From the NCBI RefSeq assembly GCF_001050275.1, contig NZ_BBYA01000010.1, forward strand, positions 186,001-250,000: a stretch of DNA of 64,000 nucleotides, read 5' to 3'. How positions within the stretch are numbered: position 1 is the stretch's first letter; each line of letters begins with the position of its first letter. The notes beneath the pieces were generated by a model. The model was not told where the DNA came from. It ran no database searches and was given only the letters and a program-made list of their open reading frames with translations. Shown here piece after piece: positions 8,401 to 39,335 of this stretch. Position numbers and translations under genes: made by a program. This DNA comes from Leptolinea tardivitalis. GTDB lineage: Bacteria > Chloroflexota > Anaerolineae > Anaerolineales > Anaerolineaceae.

Positions 8401-8896
8401 ATCAGTTCCCTTTGATGGTGAAAGAATCTTGGTTCGGCAAATACCCTCAAAACCACCCTTTATGGTGCTTGGAACACTAGTAAATGAAAAATATTACAAT
8501 GATATAAACAGTATGGTTGTTTTCTCACCTATGAAGGGGGTGTCGTTAAAATTTATCCTGGGAGTTATAAACTCTAGGTTAATCTCCTATTGGTTTCAAA
8601 AAAAGTACGACAAATTACAACGAACCATTTTCCCTCAATTTAAGGTGAATGAATTAGGTTCCTTTCCTATTGTTTACGATAGCAATAACCAAAGCCACCA
8701 ACAAATTAAAACTCATATTGAGGTATTAGTAAGTAAGATGTTGGAATTATTAAGTGTTGAAAACATAATTATTGGTGAAGCTGAAAATGCCAATGTGTTT
8801 GAGGATGTTAGGTATATCAATCTTGAATTAGATAGATTAATTTACAAACTATATAACTTATCAACCAAAGACATTGAGGAGATAGAAAAGGATTAA
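5477..8896 (+). CDS. pglX: BREX adenine-specific DNA methyltransferase PglX
   Basis: An 1139-residue class I N6-adenine methyltransferase. SAM-binding motif I is DPAMGSGHF (from residue 509), and the catalytic motif IV is NPPY at 739-742 within VIGNPPYLF. The N-terminal 170 residues form a nuclease-like or type I R-subunit-like domain that is also found in the DUF4268 protein of this operon. The C-terminal 400 residues carry the target-recognition region. Base use changes inside the gene: the first 1.4 kb is near 50% GC, but from about 7300 to the end it is strongly AT-rich, as expected if the recognition region was exchanged. An AAGGA ribosome site lies nine bases before the ATG. In known BREX systems PglX marks self DNA. 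Confidence 0.88.
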   Translation: MPMYYHNETLFSEIYLEEITRQTENADVLASLKVLGEYREYADTHNLQSWKESYVHEVLSALGFFAQFKSDHITYLFPMGSSGAENPLSLCYVLLPEDNLDNTTIGRNWAEKIIRALRANDLQWGLLTNGKQWRIYHQDEPTPYETYLEIDLEAILADKAKEAYQIFHKFMKAENFAIHEDGKCQFDRFKQESQDKIDYIEKELANALKQREEGGKGVLSDLCMGYVEELRRRKEGDLDDEGLRKKIYHGAMLYMFRLLFLFYADARRLLSDENHDLLSKVESECRVRHDGIDSGDLTFPIWDSLEHIFVDIDQTYNGGLFSPQESEFTRFLSDTRIGDSYLANVIFNLTTYREKNGQEKPISYRDMSVRHLGTLYEGLLEHKLFIAKEDTEVKVAKSVVQFIPVSQGGKLVIGQYLPVGSVYFAGDPSERKSTGSYYTPEYIVDYIVRNSVGEKLKELKATFLVKEKENLEAFTQAVDEVERSSLASMLEENALEFIRHKVLQLSVLDPAMGSGHFLVNATNLIANSITVLLNEFEIEGQLPSGTAYWRRWVVENCIYGVDLNPLAVELAKLSLWILSMAKDQPLSFLKHHLKCGNSLVGARLDDIGNYPFTSNKNEAGQISLFERDPDYKAAVEKAILRSQMIASQSSSVRHEVEEKKVWLDEIEQILAGYKAICNVHTGLFFNNTAVSENQYKMMVDRKDFSLAFSLEKDSQYFNWELEFPLIFMNQNGFNCVIGNPPYLFTRNEGIVKAEKDYFYSAFKTQSDQLNTFCLFLEQCFHILRENGALGFITPNNWLTISSFSSLRKFLLESANNIKIANVLEKVFESANVDSAILIFSKGREYSDNVSMVELQNGQEVFSVLTNSSTFVSPMFIFNISMLKNKGSSDLIEHIENEAKPLSNFCIVSTGLKAYQTGKGKPPQGDGDKKDRVYHSNRKLDNTYERYLEGRDVKRYQLTWSGQYLSYGNWLAEPRRSVPFDGERILVRQIPSKPPFMVLGTLVNEKYYNDINSMVVFSPMKGVSLKFILGVINSRLISYWFQKKYDKLQRTIFPQFKVNELGSFPIVYDSNNQSHQQIKTHIEVLVSKMLELLSVENIIIGEAENANVFEDVRYINLELDRLIYKLYNLSTKDIEEIEKD

Positions 8897-19737: not shown

Positions 19738-19779
19738 CAAAAAAGAACGGCTTTAGGAGAACCTAAAGCCGCTTTTCTT
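19738..19779. terminator. Bidirectional intrinsic terminator
   Basis: A perfect 10-bp stem (CGGCTTTAGG at 19748-19757 and CCTAAAGCCG at 19762-19771) with an AGAA loop. It is followed by CTTTTCTT on the plus strand and preceded by an A-rich run that gives U-rich RNA on the minus strand. It separates the convergent PIWI and methyltransferase-helicase genes. Confidence 0.85.
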
Positions 19780-22700
19780 AAAATCCCAATCCCATCTGTC
19801 CCTCCGGAGCTACCTCCTTTCTTCTTGTCCTTCTGACAACTACGGTCTTTTGGCTAACCCAATCATCCCAGGTCATCACCTTTGGTCCAGTTATGATCAC
19901 GGCGCTAGGTGTGGTCAAACTACCCATCGGATTATGGCTCACTTGCAGGTCATCAGCAAACAAAGTCTGCAAGTCAGAGAGCTTTGCTCCGTCCAGTACA
20001 TCCCGAGCCAGTTGCGTAAGGAAGTCGCCTTCCTCTTCTGGCACGATTGCGCCTCCAACCTCATCGCCGTAGACGAGCTGCGCAGCCTTCATCTTTTTTC
20101 CCATGAGGGCCAGGGCTGTCGCTTCCATTGCCGTGGAGTAGACCGAGAAAATCGCCTTGACGGGCTGGGTCTGCCCCAATCGCCAAACACGCCGGACGCT
20201 TTGCCAAAGCGTATATAATGAATACTCGATCTCAAAAAAGACTACGGTAGAAAACTGCACCAGATCAAGACCGGTTTCCACAAGCCGCGGGTTGCAGATT
20301 AACGCATCGATGGTATTTACTCGTTTGGCGATCCATTCTTCCCGCTTACGCGGATCGACATTACCGCCCAGGATGGAGACTCTCAGGCCATTGGCTTGCA
20401 ATGGCATCTGCACCCGGTCTTGAATATCGCGGGTTCCGGTCTGGCGGACATAGATTAGCACCTTACGTCCTTGCTGCCTCTCGAGTTTGCAGAAGTCGGC
20501 CAGCCAGTTTTCTTTCGGCAGCCATTTGTGGCCGTTGGGATTTATCGCCGGCAGTTCCATCAACGGAACCTTGCGGACTGACTTTCCATTTTCGCCATCC
20601 ATCTCATCCACCACCACAACCTCATCCCGAAAAGCTGAATTCGGTCGCGCCAGGCTCCATTGCAGCCAGGTAGACAGGTAACGACTAGATTGGACAGCCA
20701 GTTGCTTCAGGCCACTATCCATACTGTGATATTGCCGCCCCTGGTCATCGAGCATATCCAGGGCAACCACCTCCTCTTTGTAAGCTGGTAACGCCAGGTT
20801 CAGGTCTTTCAAACTCAGGAATATGGTTGTGTCCAACAACCGGCTGACGATGGCCGGGCTGACACCCGGTTGTTCTTTCGCTTGATTGCGATACCGCCGA
20901 TTGCCTGTGTAAACGCCATCCTCATCGGCATCATCATCCCGTCTCCTTCGGCGCGTAGTTTCGAGTACACCGTACAGCCTTGCCCAGCGCTTTTCGTCAT
21001 GAAAGGCGAAGTCGCGTCGAACGCCATGATTCAAGCGGTGCAACAACCAAAAGATTGAAGTACTTTTTCCACCGAAGAACGTCCCCGTGAGGGTCAACGT
21101 CCACTTTGCGGCAGTAACTAACTGGTGAAAAGCTACTCCCCGGTCGGAGCTCTTGGACTTAAACTGATGCGATTCATCAGCGATCAACAGTTTGAATTTA
21201 CCCTGAGCATGTTTTGCAATGTAATCCGCAATGCTGTGTCGGCGGGCGCCGGCGAATTCAAACAAAGGCGTTTTGCATGCATGTGAGCCCCACACCGGAT
21301 CACCATTGGCGTCCAGTTTGATCCTCCCATCCGGGTCCAGTTCCCAACCTGGAACGTGATTACGACAGAACTGGCGTTTTTCGGCCAGCTCGTTCAGGTC
21401 GGTTACAGGGATGACAAAGCCATCCTTCTCAGCCGTCACCACCTTACCACAGCTTGGGCAGGCGCAAGCATCTACGACTTTGCCGGTTAATGGATCTCTG
21501 GTTTTACGCCAGACAACCGCCGGCTGCCAACCCGTTCCAAACTTGGCTGAGGTGTGCGCCACAATCGCAATCCATTTGGGTTTTGAACCTCCTGTTCTTT
21601 TTGCCGTTTCACTTGTCTGGTGATATTGATCCAAAAAATCACGTACGTCATTGACATCATAAGCATCATCGCTGTTACGCCCAATCCGGCGCAGCTCACG
21701 CGCATGTGCCCCCGGAATCACTTCTTCGATCTCGCGGATCCATTTGGGCACCAGGTGCGGCGGGCAAATGACAATAGCGGGGTAGGCATTCAGAAGTTCA
21801 ATGACCGCTGATCCAATGGTTGTTTTTCCCGAACCCATTTCAGCCTGGCAGTTGGCTACACCGTTTTTACGGATGGAGCGTGCAAGCGCCGCAGCTGCAT
21901 GGCGCTGTGCGGGTAATAAACCAGCCCGTTCCTGACCTGGCAACGGTTTACGCTGCGTGCCGATGGCATCCAGAACAGCGATCTCCTTCGGCGTCGGGTC
22001 CAGGTTGTAGAGCGGTTTATAGGTTTCCAGTACATGGGCGGCAATTTTTTCGCCGTGAGCTTTCATGAAGTCGGAAAGCCCCTTCACATCCTGGATGATC
22101 TGGATGCCGTCCTGTCGGAGTACCGCGACCGTGGTAACGAACCTGTCTTTGAAGGTCTCGATAACGGCGTCTGCATCTTTCGTGTCCGGCTGCTCGGTCT
22201 TTTCGACCACCTTGATAACCCGCCCTTTGATCAGCATAGGCTTTCCATCTTCATCCGTCAGCCGCACGGTGCCCATCATGCCAGAGGCCATGAGCATGGC
22301 GATGTGCCCCTTTTTCAACGGCATAACCGGTTGGGCGAGTTGTGTTAATCCACGGGTCGGATGGATCAGATCCAGCCATTCACTTGTATTTTGCACGCCT
22401 GCTTCCATTGTGGCCTCGACCACTTCTTCCGGCTCCCAGTCAGTGCGTTTAAACACAATCGGTTTGCCGTTTGCCCCTCGTGAAGGTGCTGCCAGCAGTT
22501 CATAAATTGGTTCAACCGCAATTTCAATGGGTTCAAGTTCTTCAGTGGCCAGGCTTTGCAGGGAGAGAACCTCCTTGTCGGTGGGCGGTTGATAAAGCTT
22601 ACGTTTGTAAGCCAGTACCACCACCTGCTTGAATTTTTCATACAATCCATCCGGGAAACGATAAACAGTTATGGCCTCATAATGCCCAGCAAGCAGGCGA

Positions 22701-23134
22701 GCAATTTCAATCATTCCCAGGATTTTCTGGGGGATGATATAGGTCAACAACCCGCCGCGCATCAGTTTGGAGGTGGTGGTCTTGAGGAAATCCCATTCGA
22801 GCCGCTTTTGGCCTTCAAACCGGTCAAACTCGTATGGCGGGTTTAAGTAGAGCCAGGTAACGCTCTCGTCGCTCAGGACACAGGACTGCCAGGGAGCCTG
22901 GTAGACCTTATCCATCACGTTCTGTGCTTTTTCAGCCCGATCCGGGGAAAGTTCAACGCCCCAGGTTTCACAGTTAAGTCCTTTTCCTAATGTAGAAGCT
23001 GCTTTACCTTCTCCGGCGCAGGGATCAAATAACCGTCCTTTTTCAACGGACGGTTTCAGGTAAGTGCGGATGATCTCAACAACCGGGTCATCCGTGGGGT
23101 AATACCCCATTCTTTCAATTGCTGGTGGACGCAT
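19778..23134 (-). CDS. DUF6094-type methyltransferase fused to an SNF2-like helicase
   Basis: An 1118-residue fusion. Residues 1-180 form a methyltransferase domain: FDPCAGEGKA is the SAM loop and LYLNPPYEF the NPPY catalytic motif, so it probably targets DNA adenine. About residues 420-1050 form a superfamily 2 helicase: AEMGSGKTTI (motif I), LLIADESHQF (DEAH-like motif II), a C-rich insert (CACPSCGKVV and a second CxxH-type segment) that looks zinc-binding, and a second RecA domain (LIYVRQTGTRD, RLVETGLDL, SVRRVWRLGQTQP). Such proteins sit on plasmids and integrative elements, where they may protect or process element DNA. The ribosome site is CACAAGGAG behind a leader hairpin, and the gene downstream in the same direction lies outside this operon block. 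Confidence 0.8.
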   Translation of the reverse strand: MRPPAIERMGYYPTDDPVVEIIRTYLKPSVEKGRLFDPCAGEGKAASTLGKGLNCETWGVELSPDRAEKAQNVMDKVYQAPWQSCVLSDESVTWLYLNPPYEFDRFEGQKRLEWDFLKTTTSKLMRGGLLTYIIPQKILGMIEIARLLAGHYEAITVYRFPDGLYEKFKQVVVLAYKRKLYQPPTDKEVLSLQSLATEELEPIEIAVEPIYELLAAPSRGANGKPIVFKRTDWEPEEVVEATMEAGVQNTSEWLDLIHPTRGLTQLAQPVMPLKKGHIAMLMASGMMGTVRLTDEDGKPMLIKGRVIKVVEKTEQPDTKDADAVIETFKDRFVTTVAVLRQDGIQIIQDVKGLSDFMKAHGEKIAAHVLETYKPLYNLDPTPKEIAVLDAIGTQRKPLPGQERAGLLPAQRHAAAALARSIRKNGVANCQAEMGSGKTTIGSAVIELLNAYPAIVICPPHLVPKWIREIEEVIPGAHARELRRIGRNSDDAYDVNDVRDFLDQYHQTSETAKRTGGSKPKWIAIVAHTSAKFGTGWQPAVVWRKTRDPLTGKVVDACACPSCGKVVTAEKDGFVIPVTDLNELAEKRQFCRNHVPGWELDPDGRIKLDANGDPVWGSHACKTPLFEFAGARRHSIADYIAKHAQGKFKLLIADESHQFKSKSSDRGVAFHQLVTAAKWTLTLTGTFFGGKSTSIFWLLHRLNHGVRRDFAFHDEKRWARLYGVLETTRRRRRDDDADEDGVYTGNRRYRNQAKEQPGVSPAIVSRLLDTTIFLSLKDLNLALPAYKEEVVALDMLDDQGRQYHSMDSGLKQLAVQSSRYLSTWLQWSLARPNSAFRDEVVVVDEMDGENGKSVRKVPLMELPAINPNGHKWLPKENWLADFCKLERQQGRKVLIYVRQTGTRDIQDRVQMPLQANGLRVSILGGNVDPRKREEWIAKRVNTIDALICNPRLVETGLDLVQFSTVVFFEIEYSLYTLWQSVRRVWRLGQTQPVKAIFSVYSTAMEATALALMGKKMKAAQLVYGDEVGGAIVPEEEGDFLTQLARDVLDGAKLSDLQTLFADDLQVSHNPMGSLTTPSAVIITGPKVMTWDDWVSQKTVVVRRTRRKEVAPEGQMGLGF

Positions 23135-23157
23135 TGTTCACTCCTTGTGTGAGAAAT

Positions 23158-23220
23158 AAAAAATCCCCGCAGGAGGCGCGTCCCACCCCTTGAGGGGATG
23201 AAAGCGCCCCCTCCGGGGTG
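23158..23220 (-). terminator. Leader hairpin with U-run (attenuator-like)
   Basis: In the minus-strand RNA just upstream of the methyltransferase-helicase start, CCCC(5)GGAGG pairs with CCTCC and GGGG to make a long stem with an inner CCCC-TTGA-GGGG type hairpin, followed by ATTTTTTA, then CACAAGGAG and the ATG. It closely resembles the element before radC at 30001-30045. It may end the upstream transcript or control read-through. Confidence 0.6.
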
Positions 23221-23247: not shown

Positions 23248-24324
23248 TTAGATAGCCAACGAGATCTCCTCTTGGGCCAATAGGTCGGCCAGTAATTCCT
23301 GCCAATCCATTTGTCCTGGTCGCAGGTCAATTCTGGCTCCCAGGATACAGTCGCCACCGGTGACCAAATCTTGTACCAGATTACGGTTTCGAGCCTGTTT
23401 CCAAAGGGTAGCGCCCCACTCGTCCAGGATTGGGACTTCAAGAACTTCTTTGATTCGTTCGATGAAGAGCCGGATCAGCTCTTGTCCTGGTTCAGGCGTT
23501 CCCTGAAAGACAAGTAGATAGGCACTAAGGTCTTCTGGCTCCCACTTTCCGGGTAATGCCAGCCGTGATACAAAACCCACATGGTGACTGGTGTACTCCG
23601 GCATGGCTTGCCAGGCCTGTTCATACTTATCGGCAGGGATCAGAGTGAAATCGCCAACCCCGTCTTGAGTCATCTGCAGCGGTTTTCCACACATGAGGGT
23701 CACCCGCAGCGATTCCAGGCTGGTCTTGTAACCGACCAGGCCGATGTATGCCAAGTTATGATCTGCATCATAGGCATACCCCGTTATATGCGCCAGCGCC
23801 TGTCCGTTGCGCAGTTTTGGAACCGCTTCAGGAAACAGACGCTCGCCTGGTCTGGTCTTGTTATTTTCCTCTGGAATGATTTTCCAAACGACGATGCCGG
23901 CGTTAACCCGCTCCAGTTCTTCGTTGACTTCCCGTAAAACATCGTACAACCCTTTCCAGGGCTGCACACCGGTGAAAGCAACATTGGTTTCACCGCTTTG
24001 GATATTGATTCTCCTGTTTTGCACATCCAGGATGGCTTCGGCCAGGGTCAAAGGCCTGTAGTTTGCCAGCACTGGGGGCAGCTTCTCACCCGATTTTGCA
24101 ACAAACAGGTATGCGCCAAGTTCCGAATCGTACTTGAGAAAACCGGCTTTCCCAACCGCATAATCGTATGGGTACGCTGCCCGAGTCAGTTCCTGACCGA
24201 GATCCTCTCTGGTCGGCAGACCGCTGCCATCCTTATGGGCAGCAATAACAATCTTGCCTTCCTTCTGCCTGGCGATGATGCGGTTCACTTTTTCGCGCAG
24301 GTACTTGTCTTCGTACACATTCAT
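23248..24324 (-). CDS. Conserved-looking hypothetical protein
   Basis: A 358-residue soluble protein I do not recognise. It starts with a basic helical region (EKVNRIIARQKEGKI), has no signal peptide or membrane segment and no clear catalytic motif; a central LREVNEELERVNAGIVVWK and a C-terminal acidic DWQELLADLLAQEE are its most distinct parts. The chosen ATG at 24324 has AAAGGAGG upstream; a longer frame to 24459 exists, but its extra part is translated from two direct repeats that look like operators. It is the first gene of a minus-strand unit running into the methyltransferase-helicase, so a role in element DNA metabolism is possible. Confidence 0.6.
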   Translation of the reverse strand: MNVYEDKYLREKVNRIIARQKEGKIVIAAHKDGSGLPTREDLGQELTRAAYPYDYAVGKAGFLKYDSELGAYLFVAKSGEKLPPVLANYRPLTLAEAILDVQNRRINIQSGETNVAFTGVQPWKGLYDVLREVNEELERVNAGIVVWKIIPEENNKTRPGERLFPEAVPKLRNGQALAHITGYAYDADHNLAYIGLVGYKTSLESLRVTLMCGKPLQMTQDGVGDFTLIPADKYEQAWQAMPEYTSHHVGFVSRLALPGKWEPEDLSAYLLVFQGTPEPGQELIRLFIERIKEVLEVPILDEWGATLWKQARNRNLVQDLVTGGDCILGARIDLRPGQMDWQELLADLLAQEEISLAI

Positions 24325-24354: not shown

Positions 24355-24394
24355 AATAACCAACGTTAAAATTAAGAAAATAACCAACGTTAAA
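24355..24394 (-). repeat. Two 16-bp direct repeats, likely operator
   Basis: AATAACCAACGTTAAA occurs at 24355-24370 and again at 24379-24394, just upstream of the start at 24324 and overlapping a possible minus-strand promoter (TATTAA as -10). The core AATAACCAACGTT recurs at 32632-32644 upstream of the Rad52-like gene. It looks like a shared regulator site. Confidence 0.55.
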
Positions 24395-24704
24395 GCCTGT
24401 TCATATGCAAATGCATGACAGAACAGCAAAAATAATTCGCCGATGTAGAAATCAGCCAATCGTTTTTGCTGCCAAACAGGTATGTTTTGATTAAATGGAG
24501 AGAAGATGTATTTACTTTGATGTCAAAATTTGTTCGGCACAAAATCCAAAAAACGGTTCACGTAAAATGATGGAAATTGATGATATCAATGCAAAAGTAA
24601 TTGAGTTCCATCAGATTTATTTCTATTTAGAGCGATAATGGTGATAGAGTTAACCTGGTACGGAATCCGGCTAATAACAATTTGTGGTAAATGGGGCAGT
24701 TTTT
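24395..24704. other. AT-rich intergenic region between divergent genes
   Basis: About 310 bases between the hypothetical gene on the minus strand and the SIR2-domain gene on the plus strand. It is AT-rich and must hold the plus-strand promoter of the SIR2 gene, but I cannot single out a convincing -35/-10 pair. No RNA gene or repeat is apparent apart from the direct repeats at its left edge. Confidence 0.4.
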
Positions 24705-30973: not shown

Positions 30974-31002
30974 GTGTTCCTCCTGTATCTGTTTCTGAAA
31001 AT

Positions 31003-31032
31003 AGAAAAGGACACGCCCGGGTCGGCATGTCC
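31003..31032 (-). terminator. Hairpin after ssb
   Basis: On the minus strand AAGGACA...TGTCCTT forms a stem extended by TGCC/GGCG-type pairs, followed by TTCTATTTT. It lies between ssb and the next gene and probably acts as a partial terminator. Confidence 0.55.
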
Positions 31033-31062
31033 TTTGTTGTGATTCTCGATGTAAATGGTGGG

Positions 31063-31506: not shown

Positions 31507-32616
31507 TCAGGCGACAACAGAAGCAGGTGCAGGTTGATGCTCCATATGAGTGGAGCGTTGGCCTGCCAGCCAGCTACGAAGTTCATCTTTCGAGGCGGGA
31601 GACTTGCCCATTTTGGTTTTGAACTGGTCATAGGCTTCCTGCTCGGGAACATTCCCGTTAACCAGGACACCGTCGCCGTATTTACGAACAATCGGCGCAG
31701 TTGTTGTTCGAGAAGCTTGTGAAGTCGTTGATGCAGCCGGGTTATTGGTTTGACCATTTTCCCGACCTTGTTCTAAACCGGCATTCTGGGCAATTTCCTT
31801 GTCATACAGCGAATTCCCGAACTGCTCACCCATTTGACGAAAACAGCGTTTCAGGCAGTCCGTCGCCGAACCAGCTAAAGCCATATCCAATGCTTCCGGA
31901 GTATCGCCAGTGAAAATGCAGCGACCCAGGTCGGCATGGCTATAAAACTTACCATCCAGGTCTACGGACACCTTGCCGGTGATATAGACCAGCCCGACTT
32001 CCTCTGTCTGAACATTGCCATTGGCATCGATCAGCGGAACCTTACGTTTTTCCTGCTGGTTCCAGGCCAATACCTTTTTCTGCCAGCGAACAATAACTGG
32101 CTCGCCGATTAAGTCAAACGACCAGGCAAAACCGAAGACGGTATTTGCTCGATCAATGACATCGTAGCCTTCCAGGTAAGGGACAGAACCCATTCCTGGC
32201 GCTTGCCGGCGTTTGACCCTGGACATATCCAGCGGTTGACGCAATTCCCATAATATGCGGCTCAACCGATCCCCCAGGCTCCCATCTGATAAGGGTTGTT
32301 CGTTCATTTGCATCTCCTTGTTAATGTCTGAATAGGATTGGTTTTGCGCTGTCTCTGAGAGACGAACGCCTTCGATATGTTTGCAGAGAATCTGCGGCCC
32401 ACGCTGCTGGTAGTCCATACAGGTGCATGCCCAGTAATCACCATTCAAAGAAACGGCGTATGGCAATGTGCGTCCGAAACGGACGCCATCGCCATTTTGT
32501 ACCGTCCATTGCTGAGGGGCGATGCGGGTAACCAGGAACTTTCCAGCCAGGATGGCAGATCGCGCCCGTTCGGTGCGTTCAGCTTGTGCTTGTTTCAATT
32601 CTTGGCTTTCTTGCAT
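31507..32616 (-). CDS. SWIM zinc finger-Rad52 fusion, single-strand annealing protein
   Basis: A 369-residue protein. Residues about 60-85 hold a SWIM-type zinc site (WACTCMDY...CKHIEGV). Residues about 110-255 match the Rad52/Rad22 annealing domain (GYDVIDRANTVFGFAWSF, VYITGKVSVDL, LAGSATDCLKRCFRQMG). A disordered Ser/Thr/Gln-rich linker leads to a small C-terminal helical segment. It would anneal complementary single strands during element recombination. The ATG at 32616 has CACAAGGAGG six bases upstream. One copy of the AATAACCAACGTT operator-like repeat sits just before that ribosome site. Confidence 0.8.
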   Translation of the reverse strand: MQESQELKQAQAERTERARSAILAGKFLVTRIAPQQWTVQNGDGVRFGRTLPYAVSLNGDYWACTCMDYQQRGPQILCKHIEGVRLSETAQNQSYSDINKEMQMNEQPLSDGSLGDRLSRILWELRQPLDMSRVKRRQAPGMGSVPYLEGYDVIDRANTVFGFAWSFDLIGEPVIVRWQKKVLAWNQQEKRKVPLIDANGNVQTEEVGLVYITGKVSVDLDGKFYSHADLGRCIFTGDTPEALDMALAGSATDCLKRCFRQMGEQFGNSLYDKEIAQNAGLEQGRENGQTNNPAASTTSQASRTTTAPIVRKYGDGVLVNGNVPEQEAYDQFKTKMGKSPASKDELRSWLAGQRSTHMEHQPAPASVVA

Positions 32617-32631
32617 ATTCCTCCTTGTGAA

Positions 32632-32644
32632 AATAACCAACGTT
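32632..32644 (-). promoter_or_regulatory. Third copy of the AATAACCAACGTT motif
   Basis: The 13-base core of the direct repeats at 24355-24394 recurs here, immediately upstream of the ribosome site of the Rad52-like gene, suggesting a shared regulator of the two operons. Confidence 0.5.
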
Positions 32645-32796
32645 GAATAAAGTCCAAATGATGTGAAGTACCGGCCCTCGAAATAACATCAAGAGCGTTC
32701 CAGCGTTTAAAACTACCCGTGTGAAATTACAGGGCAGCAAACGCCAGGGAAAAAGGCAGATACTTTTTCACTCGCATTTATTGCCTTGTTTAAGTC

Positions 32797-32833
32797 TGCG
32801 TGGGTAGGCGGGGCAACCCCGACCACCCACGCA
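32797..32833. ncRNA. Strong GC-rich hairpin
   Basis: TGCGTGGGT pairs with ACCCACGCA, and inside it CGGGG pairs with CCCCG around a CAA loop. No U-run follows on either strand, so it is not a simple terminator. Confidence 0.5.
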
Positions 32834-32965
32834 AAGATCCCCTTCAATGGGGTAATGTTCTCCATGTCATATGAACCCTTCTGCTTTTCAGCACGCCAAA
32901 AAGCCTCAAAAGAGGAAAAGGTTGTTTATTAATGTGCTGCCCCGTCCAAAGGGGGTAAACAAAAA

Positions 32966-33070
32966 GGAGGATCACTCGCCCCGAGAAACTTTCGGGAGCT
33001 TGAGGTGGCGGCTCTTAGTAACTATCTTGCTTTATGAGCAAGAGGGATGAGCACCACCTTGTGATCCTCC
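32966..33070. ncRNA. Branched structured RNA candidate
   Basis: A perfect 10-bp outer stem (GGAGGATCAC with GTGATCCTCC) closes a 105-base element. Inside are a hairpin (CCCGA with TCGGG), then a long arm built from AGGTGG/CCACCT, GCTC/GAGC and TCTTGCT/AGCAAGA with a five-base loop. On the minus strand the outer stem is followed by TTTTTG, so that strand is the likelier transcript. I recognise no known RNA family. Confidence 0.55.
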
Positions 33071-33206
33071 ATGTGAACCTAAAGCGAATAAACCTATCGC
33101 TTCAGGTCAGAAAAACCTTTTATCTGCAAATGACAACCCGACGCAGTTTTTACTAGACAATTAACCGATTAGACTCATTCATCATGAAATGTTTAGAGAT
33201 TTTTTG

Positions 33207-33232
33207 GCGCATGATTATCCACAAGTATGCGC
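33207..33232. other. DnaA box within an inverted repeat (possible origin element)
   Basis: TTATCCACA at 33215-33223 is a perfect DnaA box. It sits between GCGCAT (33207-33212) and ATGCGC (33227-33232). Nearby, CCGATTAGACTCATTC and AATCGGTT...GAATGAGTC form further inverted repeats. Only one consensus box is seen, so origin function is unproven. Confidence 0.4.
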
Positions 33233-33259
33233 ACATTAATCGGTTGTGAATGGAATGAG

Positions 33260-33838: not shown

Positions 33839-33891
33839 TAGAGCCTCCTTGTGTCATACTCCTCTAGATCGAGGAGCCATTAAAACAAAAT

Positions 33892-33929
33892 GCCGGACAA
33901 ACGTAGCACCCAGTAGGTACATGTCCGGC
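33892..33929 (-). promoter_or_regulatory. Leader hairpin, copy A of the four-copy module
   Basis: GCCGGACA at 33892-33899 pairs perfectly with TGTCCGGC at 33922-33929; the minus-strand RNA then runs into ATTTTGTTTT. The loop has CCTACTGGG. It sits between the promoter at 33967-33995 and the ribosome site of the OB-fold gene. Confidence 0.7.
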
Positions 33930-37449: not shown

Positions 37450-38676
37450 ATGTTAGTCGAATTTCGCCTGAAGAATTATCGCTGTTTCAAAGACGAACAG
37501 GTTTTGAACCTGACTGCCGGTTCGGATCTATCTTTGTCCGATAACGTTATTAAACCTCCTGACACTTCAAAATTTAAAATACTCCGCAGCGTTGTAATTT
37601 ACGGCCCAAATGCTTCCGGCAAAACGAAAGTTTTAGAGGCGTTAAAATTCATTCGGGATTTTGTCCGCGAATCGGCCAACCGCAAACCGGATGAAACGAT
37701 CGATACTCAGCCATTCCTGTTAGATCCTGTTACCTCCGATGCTCCATCTACTTTCGAAATCACTTTTATACAGGACCGGGTACGCTATCAATATGGAATT
37801 TCGGTGGATCATACCCATGTATGGAATGAATACCTATATGCTGCGCCTAAGGGTCGAACCGTACCTTATTTTCAACGTGCCTGGAATAAGAACACAAAGA
37901 AAGAAGAATACTATTTTGGTCCATCGCTCAAGGGCCAGAATGAAAAGATCAGTTTACTCACCCGCGACAATGCGCTGTTTTTGTCAGTGGCGGCAACTTT
38001 CAAACACCCCATGCTTTCTGCGGTCTATCAGTGGTTTTCTGGAATTATTCTGGAACTCAACCCATTACAGGAAACCAGCCTGGATCTGGTCAATTTAAAT
38101 GGAGACTATCACCAAGGTATCCGTGATCTGTTACGTTATGCGGATCTGGGTATCTGGGACTACAAGGTCAAAGAACCCTCTATCCCTGAAAACAAATTTC
38201 AATGGATTGGCGAACGTATTGAAATGCTTCACCAAACCCATGATAATAAGGTGGTTGCATTTCCGTTATCTTCGGAATCAAATGGTACAAAGCACATTCT
38301 CTTTCTGAGTCAGTTGGTTCTACGTGCTCTGGAAACTGGCAATGTTCTGGTTGTTGATGAAATGGATGCCAGTATGCATCCGCTCCTGGTGCGTGCCATT
38401 GTTGAAATGTTCCATAACCCGGCCATCAACCAACATAACGCTCAATTAATCTTCAATACCCACGATACAACATTGTTGGATAATACCCTCTTCCGACGAG
38501 ATCAAATTTGGTTTACGGAAAAAGATCAAGAAGGTGCATCACATTTATATTCACTTCTGGAATATAGCCCCCGCAAAGGTGAATCCCTAGCAAAAGGTTA
38601 TCTACAAGGGCGTTATGGTGCTATTCCTTTCTTAGGTGATGTGTATACTCTCCTCGAGAAGGATGGCGTGCAATGA
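37450..38676 (+). CDS. rloA: RloA-like AAA ATPase (AAA15 family)
   Basis: A 408-residue ABC-type ATPase. It opens with LVEFRLKNYRCFKDEQ (the RecF/OLD-type start), has Walker A GPNASGKTK near residue 52, and Walker B VLVVDEMDASMHPLL near 302, with NTHDTTLLD afterwards as the switch His. This is the RloA/AbiL-like ATPase that pairs with RloB in anti-phage abortive infection. Its stop overlaps the start of rloB by four bases (ATGA), so they are co-translated. It has a strong promoter and AAGGAGG. It may sense a phage protein and release or activate RloB; this is inferred from related systems. Confidence 0.82.
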   Translation: MLVEFRLKNYRCFKDEQVLNLTAGSDLSLSDNVIKPPDTSKFKILRSVVIYGPNASGKTKVLEALKFIRDFVRESANRKPDETIDTQPFLLDPVTSDAPSTFEITFIQDRVRYQYGISVDHTHVWNEYLYAAPKGRTVPYFQRAWNKNTKKEEYYFGPSLKGQNEKISLLTRDNALFLSVAATFKHPMLSAVYQWFSGIILELNPLQETSLDLVNLNGDYHQGIRDLLRYADLGIWDYKVKEPSIPENKFQWIGERIEMLHQTHDNKVVAFPLSSESNGTKHILFLSQLVLRALETGNVLVVDEMDASMHPLLVRAIVEMFHNPAINQHNAQLIFNTHDTTLLDNTLFRRDQIWFTEKDQEGASHLYSLLEYSPRKGESLAKGYLQGRYGAIPFLGDVYTLLEKDGVQ

Positions 38677-39335
38677 GTCGTAAGAAAAAATCGTCCGGAC
38701 GTCAGCCATTATTTGACAAGGGAAAGCGTTGGGCAAATTATCAACGCCGTCAGAATCTCCTCACTCCACGAAAAACAATTCTCATCGTTTGTGAAGGAAG
38801 ACAAACGGAACCAAATTATTTCAACGCGCTTCGCGATGAACTCAGAAATAAGAACATTCGGGTAAGGATCATCCCTGGCGGCGAAAGCCGGGTTACGCCG
38901 CTTTATCTGGTACAAAGCCTGGCAACAGAAATTCAGCGTCTTGACTGGGATTCAACCCACGATGAGGCTTGGTGCGTTTTTGACATTGAACAATCCGGCA
39001 CACATACGACCTTACAAAGGGCTCTTGCTAGCGCAAAAAAGCAGAACTACCACCTTGCAGTATCCAATCCATCCTTTGAATATTGGATTATGTTACATTA
39101 TGAGCGCTCGAACAGAGAATTTCTCAATGCAGCCGATGTGGTCAGCGCACTTACCAGGTATATTCCCAATTATTCGAAGTCAATGTCCGTGTATTCTCTT
39201 GTTCGGAGGCTTACGAATCAGGCCATTGAAAACGCTGAAACGCTCCGATTATTATGTGATAGACATTGGGAGGATTTCCCTAATCCATCCACCGGAATTG
39301 ATATTCTGGTTAAGAAATTAAATTCTTCAATATAA
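38673..39335 (+). CDS. rloB: RloB family protein (TOPRIM-like effector)
   Basis: A 220-residue protein of the RloB family: ILIVCEGRQTEPNYF at about residues 36-50 holds the TOPRIM-type Glu, CVFDIEQSG near residue 102 the acidic second site, and SNPSFEYWIMLHYE near 130 the conserved third block. The N-terminal 30 residues are basic. It is the presumed nuclease-like effector of the RloAB pair. It overlaps rloA by four bases and is followed after 15 bases by a HEPN-like gene with its own ribosome site. Confidence 0.85.
   Translation: MSRKKKSSGRQPLFDKGKRWANYQRRQNLLTPRKTILIVCEGRQTEPNYFNALRDELRNKNIRVRIIPGGESRVTPLYLVQSLATEIQRLDWDSTHDEAWCVFDIEQSGTHTTLQRALASAKKQNYHLAVSNPSFEYWIMLHYERSNREFLNAADVVSALTRYIPNYSKSMSVYSLVRRLTNQAIENAETLRLLCDRHWEDFPNPSTGIDILVKKLNSSI

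Follow-up and report, generated by a model that had tools for sequence, protein, structure and literature searches.

Few structured RNAs are known to control entire mobile-element operons, namely put, conAn2 and canT, with EAR as a comparable case of operon-wide RNA control in exopolysaccharide operons (PMC9378689, PMC8955417, PMC11658703). The put sites of HK022 (putL and putR) consist of two adjacent stem-loops of ~70 nt, occur in two copies per mobile genome, each copy 3' of an early promoter, and act in cis on RNA polymerase (PMC9378689). The conjugation operon of pLS20 contains internal terminators and begins with the conAn2 RNA, which works together with the ConAn1 protein (PMC8955417). 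Tn916 is an integrative conjugative element equipped with an insulating terminator as well; its canT is located between orf8 and xis, spans 452 nt with a complex multi-stem predicted fold, and has been tested with reporters (PMC11658703). STAXI are repeated pseudoknots near ssb and other DNA-handling genes (PMC2864571).

Here we analyzed a 64,000-nt stretch of the Leptolinea tardivitalis genome (G000:C10:186001-250000, G000 being the own genome; hereafter the window). An RNA of ~600 bases is modelled as a folded leader ahead of a rad52-like gene that Anaerolineaceae-type bacteria carry on a mobile element. By computation, the fold of this RNA is conserved, the gene-sense strand is preferred, the RNA is linked to rad52, and its P4–P5–repeat arrangement recurs at the head of another gene string. 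The sequences suggest an uncatalogued RNA switch that may control the genes of the element, and a cis-acting role of one kind or another is probable for the modelled leader.

The rad52 locus and its distribution

The gap of 643 nt separates a 192-aa gene from rad52, both on the minus strand (Table 1). The rad52-like protein showed an N-terminal CxC..CxH pattern in the alignment. The 192-aa protein had no matches in Pfam, NCBIfam or PHROGs and one match with E near 1 among solved structures; only by eye does its sequence pattern look SSB/OB-like. Genes for SSB, RadC, an exonuclease-like protein and the beta clamp lie downstream of rad52, whereas the opposite side holds genes for a Tad-type pilus and for secretion ATPases. 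The ATPases found were of the Tad/T2SS type, with weak, below-cut-off similarity to HerA ATPases. This setting, together with the several gene copies held by some genomes (below), points to a mobile element; calling it conjugative would be a guess, because no relaxase or integrase was found among the proteins scanned.

The 20 named loci with a Rad52 relative were mostly from Chloroflexota (Leptolinea, Levilinea, Ornatilinea, Flexilinea and MAGs; Leptolinea sp. HRD-7 is L030 and Ornatilinea apprima is L036), and two of these contigs were binned as Micrarchaeota and Bacteroidota. The Micrarchaeota assignment of L022, a 6.6-kb MAG contig with an element closely related to that of the window, is probably a binning error. 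The order 192-aa gene, gap, rad52, SSB was found in 13 of the 16 named loci searched (out of 20); the sequences of the other three (L022, L028, L040) start within the gap or within rad52. Multiple gene copies per genome were present in G034, G107, G164 and G168. A pPIWI_RE defence-type gene pair (an RNase H/MID protein and its partner; L167:5928-12100, G000:C10), just beyond the window, is cargo of the same region, and an AAA_21 ATPase and RloB pair at 37450-39335, amid the pilus genes, is likely defence cargo. ARAGORN reported a tRNA-Ile (tat) at 8455-8538 on the minus strand, antisense within a 1139-aa ORF, which is possibly a false call.

Rad52 relatives were found in 22/147 genomes of the family (E 1e-20), in 27/400 genomes of the order (profile, E 1e-15; match partial in at least seven), and in 2/396 genomes of the class draw (E 1e-40). 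The gap DNA itself matched five other genomes of 61 (own genome included) at 69-72% identity over ~255 nt, and matched G014 over just 58 nt. The gap was conserved beside rad52 in Anaerolineaceae-type genomes and in family f14 (L076, L077). A model of domain D2 (R1) identified 19 places in 16 of the 400 genomes of the order, all upstream of a rad52 match, 18 of them close and one (G089) ~1.55 kb away. R1 was blind to group G, with no match in G006, G105, G621 and G690. In Flexilinea flocculi (L038, 4523-5842), the rad52 leader carries an insertion of ~1.3 kb, and the spacing in G089 is the same. A D2-like place elsewhere in the own genome (C11, 21 bits) was rejected as resembling a plain terminator, and no similar leader was seen by eye at the distant Rad52 matches L079, L081 and L082.

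The earlier note on this DNA had recognized no known RNA here, and Rfam 15 agreed: no match exceeded the gathering threshold, only three scattered sub-threshold matches appeared at E up to 5, and no known riboswitch aptamer was found. The comparison with omega-RNA and retron RNAs proposed in that note found no support, with no Rfam match and no transposase or reverse transcriptase among the 40 Pfam-scanned window proteins. By blastn, the gap had no matches in plasmid and phage collections, and the second copy of its 3' module (see below) had none in phages; the peptide patterns used revealed no viral contigs encoding a relative of the window Rad52. Among the matches listed from the open-licence literature on such RNAs, on Chloroflexi/Anaerolineae elements and on antitermination, the RNA was undescribed.

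GOLLD, ROOL and OLE are examples of large noncoding RNAs, and the leader could likewise be a trans-acting RNA, processed from the rad52 transcript and working with element proteins. Its size, its several branched domains and the conserved unpaired flanks of D2 are consistent with such an RNA. We consider this improbable, as no solitary copies were among the R1 matches in 400 genomes, Rfam gave no match, and the 3' module recurs as the leader of another gene.

Table 1. Positions of the leader domains, module copies, terminator-like hairpins and associated genes (window coordinates unless a contig is named)
Feature	Position	Strand	Remarks
Upstream gene, 192 aa	33260..33838	minus	without family match
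rad52 leader RNA (predicted)	32617..33259	minus	entire intercistronic gap; conserved part from ~33112 to rad52 ribosome site
Hairpin i	33076..33108	minus	ACCTGAAGCG / CGCTTTAGGT; predicted fold
D1	32957..33070	minus	105-nt element at 32966-33070 with its U-run; closed by GGAGGAUCAC/GUGAUCCUCC, with variable inner stems; resembles a terminator
D2	32862..32938	minus	covarying stem P2 between the conserved flanks GCACyTTAACAAACA and TCATAwCACA
Hairpin iv	32797..32833	minus	long, sequence variable, without U-run
P4	32730..32788	minus	long imperfect hairpin with covariation; in relatives the lower stem reads CAGGGC.gcAAA / UUUGCUGCCCUG
P5	32700..32747	minus	alternative hairpin re-using P4 3' strand; covariation weak
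Repeat X3	32700..32707	minus	AACGCTGG; from sequence
Repeat X4	32637..32644	minus	AACGTTGG; ~10 nt upstream of rad52 ribosome site
rad52-like gene	31507..32616	minus	Rad52_Rad22 domain; start codon at 32616
Second module copy (P4', P5', first repeat)	24379..24476	minus	leader of gene 23248-24324
Two AACGTTGG repeats, second copy	24360..24391 (24384-24391, 24360-24367)	minus	from sequence
Gene headed by second copy	23248..24324	minus	without family match
Possible third copy	G000:C10:251397-251490 (L167)		1.4 kb beyond window; leader of 134-aa membrane-protein gene
Terminator-like hairpin with U-run	33885..33917	minus	ahead of ribosome site of 192-aa gene
Terminator-like hairpin with U-rich tail	30996..31035	minus	between SSB and next gene
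Terminator-like branched hairpin with U-run	23151..23218	minus	between gene 23248-24324 and helicase gene 19778-23134

Domain structure, covariation and strand preference of the leader

Within the gap, the earlier note had reported a 105-base element closed by a 10-bp perfect stem, with at least three inner stems, hairpins on both sides, and a U-run on the minus strand. The closing stem (32966-32975 / 33061-33070), the flanking hairpins on both sides, and the U-run TTTTTGTTT 3' of the element on the minus strand were all confirmed. The three inner stems are present in the window but are not universal, the interior being simpler in L036, L057, L066 and L058. As a unit, the element folds far beyond chance, with -48.6 kcal/mol (z -6.0) on the minus strand and -53.0 kcal/mol (z -6.3) on the plus strand, and 0/200 shuffles as good in either case. 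It does not stand alone, but forms domain D1 within a conserved RNA of greater length; a 544-nt minus-strand segment (32617-33160) had a z of -8.1, with 0/100 shuffles as good.

The view that D1 is not a plain terminator holds for its large branched loop, which in the window is 85 nt long with three stems rather than short, but D1 alone is built like an intrinsic terminator: it has a GC-rich stem and a U-tract, with TTTTTnTTT or a near variant in distinct D1 sequences and a broken tract in L058. In group G (L059, L060, L067, L076, L077), which belongs to another lineage, a different hairpin replaces D1. A leader peptide within D1 (ribosome-like site and start codon) was rejected because the frame is not conserved by eye, and pairing between the D1 U-run and a D2 flank was rejected as inconsistent among relatives, also by eye. 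No sigma-70-like promoter was found in the gap.

Very different sequences shared a similar order of parts: hairpin i, D1, GCACyTTAACAAACA-P2-TCATAwCACA, hairpin iv, P4, P5, repeats and ribosome site. At the position of hairpin i, a hairpin of different sequence was found in L036, L057, L058 and L061. L058 and L036 were without a clear P6, a third pairing partner near rad52 in some lineages, and L026 was missing part of D2.

Covariation among homologues had been suggested as a check, and homologues covary, P2 and P4 clearly and D1 modestly; the shuffles ignore relatedness, so the following counts are not probabilities. In P2 (alignment A2, 11 distinct D2 sequences; group G, L026 with its deletion, and near copies excluded), 5/7 pairs had double-side changes and 97.3% of cells were paired. 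P4 (A3, 18 distinct sequences, L058 excluded) had 24 double-changed cells versus 8.5 ± 2.5 in shuffles (0/500) and 9/17 double-changed pairs versus 5.5 ± 1.4 (4/500), while its pair-type diversity was not above shuffles (283/500). Three double-changed pairs were found in D1 versus 0.9 ± 0.6 in shuffles (2/500), with pair types not above shuffles (500/500; A6, 10 of 22 distinct sequences; L036, L057, L066, L058 and near copies excluded); its closing stem is nearly invariant and therefore silent for covariation. For P5, 92.9% of cells were paired and only two pairs were double-changed (38/500; A4, 12 sequences), an alignment that covers only part of the lineages because the excluded loci (group G, L057, L066, L058) have a differing P5. 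Shifting the partner by 1-3 columns lowered pairing to 27-58% in P2, P4, D1 and P5.

The gene-sense strand was more stable than the antisense strand in 14/16 relatives for both P4 and the 560-nt leader, some of these relatives being near copies. The sense strand was also the more stable for D1 in 9/11 and for the P6 region in 13/16, but for D2 in only 7/16, and in the window D1 alone was slightly more stable on the plus strand. Watson-Crick-only folds leaned just mildly to the sense strand, with G-T at 29 versus A-C at 20. An antisense reading of the entire region was rejected, being less stable in 14/16 relatives.

The strand preference and the G-U pairs among the pair types also argue against a DNA structure that would act as a single strand in transfer or replication (oriT, single-strand origin, or in the way proposed for STAXI). 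Such a structure would suit the many palindromes and the DNA-handling neighbours (Rad52, SSB, beta clamp, RadC), but each copy of the module described below ends close to a ribosome site, and we regard this explanation as improbable.

Recurrence of the 3' module at another gene and possibly at a third

The 3' module of the leader is composed of the imperfect hairpin P4, the hairpin P5 sharing one of its strands, and AACGTTGG repeats before the ribosome site. A survey of other gaps yielded a second copy, in the leader of gene 23248-24324 (hereafter gene 23248). This gene had no matches in Pfam, NCBIfam or PHROGs and one match with E near 1 among solved structures, and orthologues were present in 19/22 genomes queried. 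The orthologue leaders had an identical anatomy, with quite different P4' stem sequences. In P4'/P5' (A5, 12 sequences; L108, L122 and near copies excluded), 13/22 pairs were double-changed versus 6.7 ± 1.5 in shuffles (0/500). In both copies, own arms paired better than swapped arms (permutation p 0.0002; 12 sequences each, some of them near copies; L108, L121, L122 and L058 excluded).

Repeats were found in 23/31 leaders of gene 23248 (the window and 22 of 30 relatives), including the second copies of L115, L126 and L133. They were present in none of the five leaders with a same-strand ORF whose end lies 27-46 nt upstream of the inferred start (L119, L120, L124, L125, L134) and in 23/26 of the remaining leaders, 3/26 being non-abutting and without repeats. 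The module thus seems to mark the heads of gene strings, although the absence at abutting genes is suggestive and not independent, because four of the five abutting loci represent one lineage. The last repeat was located 22-27 nt before the ribosome site in 19/20 second copies measured, and 15 nt before it in L122. Across L107-L136, several unrelated upstream sequences run up to the first base of P4' and give way to the module there, a pattern that would be expected if cargo upstream of gene 23248 were exchanged as far as this junction. The ACGTyGG motif alone was rejected as an element-wide signal, being no commoner than chance in the window.

A model trained solely on second-copy leaders (R3) was run on 23 whole genomes and gave 39 places at E 0.1. 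These comprised 23 second copies (mostly training sequences or near copies), two rad52 leaders, three possible third copies, one copy in a distant element (L151, G015), eight antisense shadows, and two unexplained places (G006, G163:C43); the match in G006 (L153) was rejected, since the module was not seen there. The rad52 leaders recovered in 2/23 genomes were those of G105 (3.8e-6) and G621 (0.048), and none was returned at E 0.1 for G000 or G690. On loci, R3 recovered 8/12 existing rad52 leaders, best in L076 (5.8e-9) and L060 (9.7e-8) and at 4.6e-4 to 3.9e-3 in L057, L059, L021, L077, L025 and L061, with an equally good antisense match at L077; it missed those of L067, L036, L023 and L030. 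The rad52 leader of the window scored E 0.033. Two chance matches in 396 whole genomes, up to E 1.7e-4, set a noise floor of ~1e-4, so strong R3 matches argue for relatedness and weak ones merely agree with it. R3 matches L168 and L169, outside the element family, were rejected as chance from their surroundings. Most second copies scored far higher in sense than in antisense, e.g., 91.3 versus 28.4 bits in G163, which also speaks against the DNA structure considered above.

The possible third copy of the own genome lies in the leader of a membrane-protein gene, and comparable leaders stand before the same gene in L160 (G163) and L161 (G023); G034:C51 gave a further match. The evidence is weak, each match falling below the whole-genome noise floor and the G000 copy being unlisted by R3, but the location agrees, and L160 compared with G000 shows some pair-preserving changes.

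Candidate modes of action and comparison with known systems

Terminator-like hairpins occur inside the gene strings. The downstream gap of gene 23248 was read in 13 of 30 loci, and a hairpin was found before the helicase gene in all 13, with a poor outer stem and U-tract in L123. The branched hairpin at 23151-23218, with a conserved CCCCGGAGG..CTCC..CGGGG and U-run in the window and the 13 loci, has the look of a separate, additional structured RNA. The SSB-gap hairpin was kept in the window and in 5/5 relatives read, but its U-tail was clear in no more than three of them (the window, L021 and L036); L023 had a weaker tail, and L025 and L030 a poor one. Counterparts of the hairpin at 33885-33917 were seen by eye in L061, L076 and L077. 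Between 19700 and 36500, 26 terminator-like sites were counted versus 19.9 ± 3.9 expected, barely above chance.

Our tentative first choice among the cis-acting roles is a leader that would control transcription read-through (antitermination), which we favour slightly over translational control. We infer that the leader is transcribed together with its downstream genes and would act at the level of the transcription unit. The nascent P4/P5 may act jointly with the AACGUUGG repeats, and perhaps with a protein encoded by the element, to modify RNA polymerase, and the modified polymerase would then pass the terminator-like hairpins of the SSB gap and of the gap between gene 23248 and the helicase gene, where transcription may otherwise end. 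In other mobile elements, put, conAn2 and canT are reported to act in this manner. Insulation from stray transcription might be provided by two terminators, D1 and the hairpin at 33885-33917; both are upstream of the module, so the module could not relieve them. Two adjacent stem-loops, as in put, are repeated at the heads of predicted units, in two copies by fold and position, while the hairpins downstream are conserved in the strings with uneven U-tails and weak regional enrichment. The full version of this scheme would be a novel RNA-based system of processive antitermination in Chloroflexota elements, in which every transcription unit would begin with a module (two such modules within the window and a third just beyond it), would be shielded by insulating terminators ahead of it, and would contain internal terminators passed only by module-marked polymerases; as a whole, we consider it doubtful.

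The same module may instead work without processive antitermination, as a switch of attenuation or of translation. In that case P4 would compete with P5, or with P6 in some lineages, and a ligand or protein reading the AACGUUGG repeats would decide translation or termination at D1. P4 and P5 share one strand in both copies, a build that would suit the expression platform of a riboswitch, and P5 is largely paired across its 12 sequences; its covariation is weak, and group G, L057 and L058 are excluded from it. Pairing between the shared strand and downstream sequence exceeded the shuffle mean in 15/15 relatives, with p below 0.05 in 7/15 and individual values up to 0.38; combined by Fisher's method over nine lineages, chosen in two ways, p was 1e-5 to 3e-5 in a region picked post hoc. 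P6 pairing failed in the five group C sequences folded. The near-fixed distance from the repeats to the ribosome site suits translational control too, and by eye the 3' strand of D1 complements the rad52 ribosome site, as would any CCTCC. The repeats of L108 and L121 pair poorly by eye, and X3:X4 pairing was rejected as a general helix, being absent in group C and, by eye, in L108 and L121. Repeats missing at genes that abut another would be odd for gene-specific translation control. Taken together, such a switch is possible, and we hold it with reserve.

The leader RNA is unmatched in Rfam, is found more than once in a single element, and shows covariation enough to design compensatory mutants. 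If it acts on read-through, as we tentatively prefer, RNA antitermination would extend to elements of Chloroflexota; an effect on translation would instead make it an element-wide RNA regulon.

The likeness to put, conAn2 and canT is one of build and place. Like put, the leader has two adjacent stem-loops in two copies within one mobile element, similar by build and place only; unlike put, P4 and P5 share a strand, a ribosome site as well as AACGUUGG repeats lie downstream of them, the host is outside the enterobacteria, and antitermination is only proposed. Compared to conAn2, a partner of the ConAn1 type would here be at most a guess, the 192-aa gene being the candidate. With canT the leader has in common an intergenic location, a multi-stem predicted fold and a mobile element, again by build and place only, and it differs in its repeated 3' module and in being known from sequence alone. 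As with STAXI, a repeated structured motif is found near ssb and DNA-handling genes, but the motif here consists of hairpins and direct repeats at the heads of gene strings.
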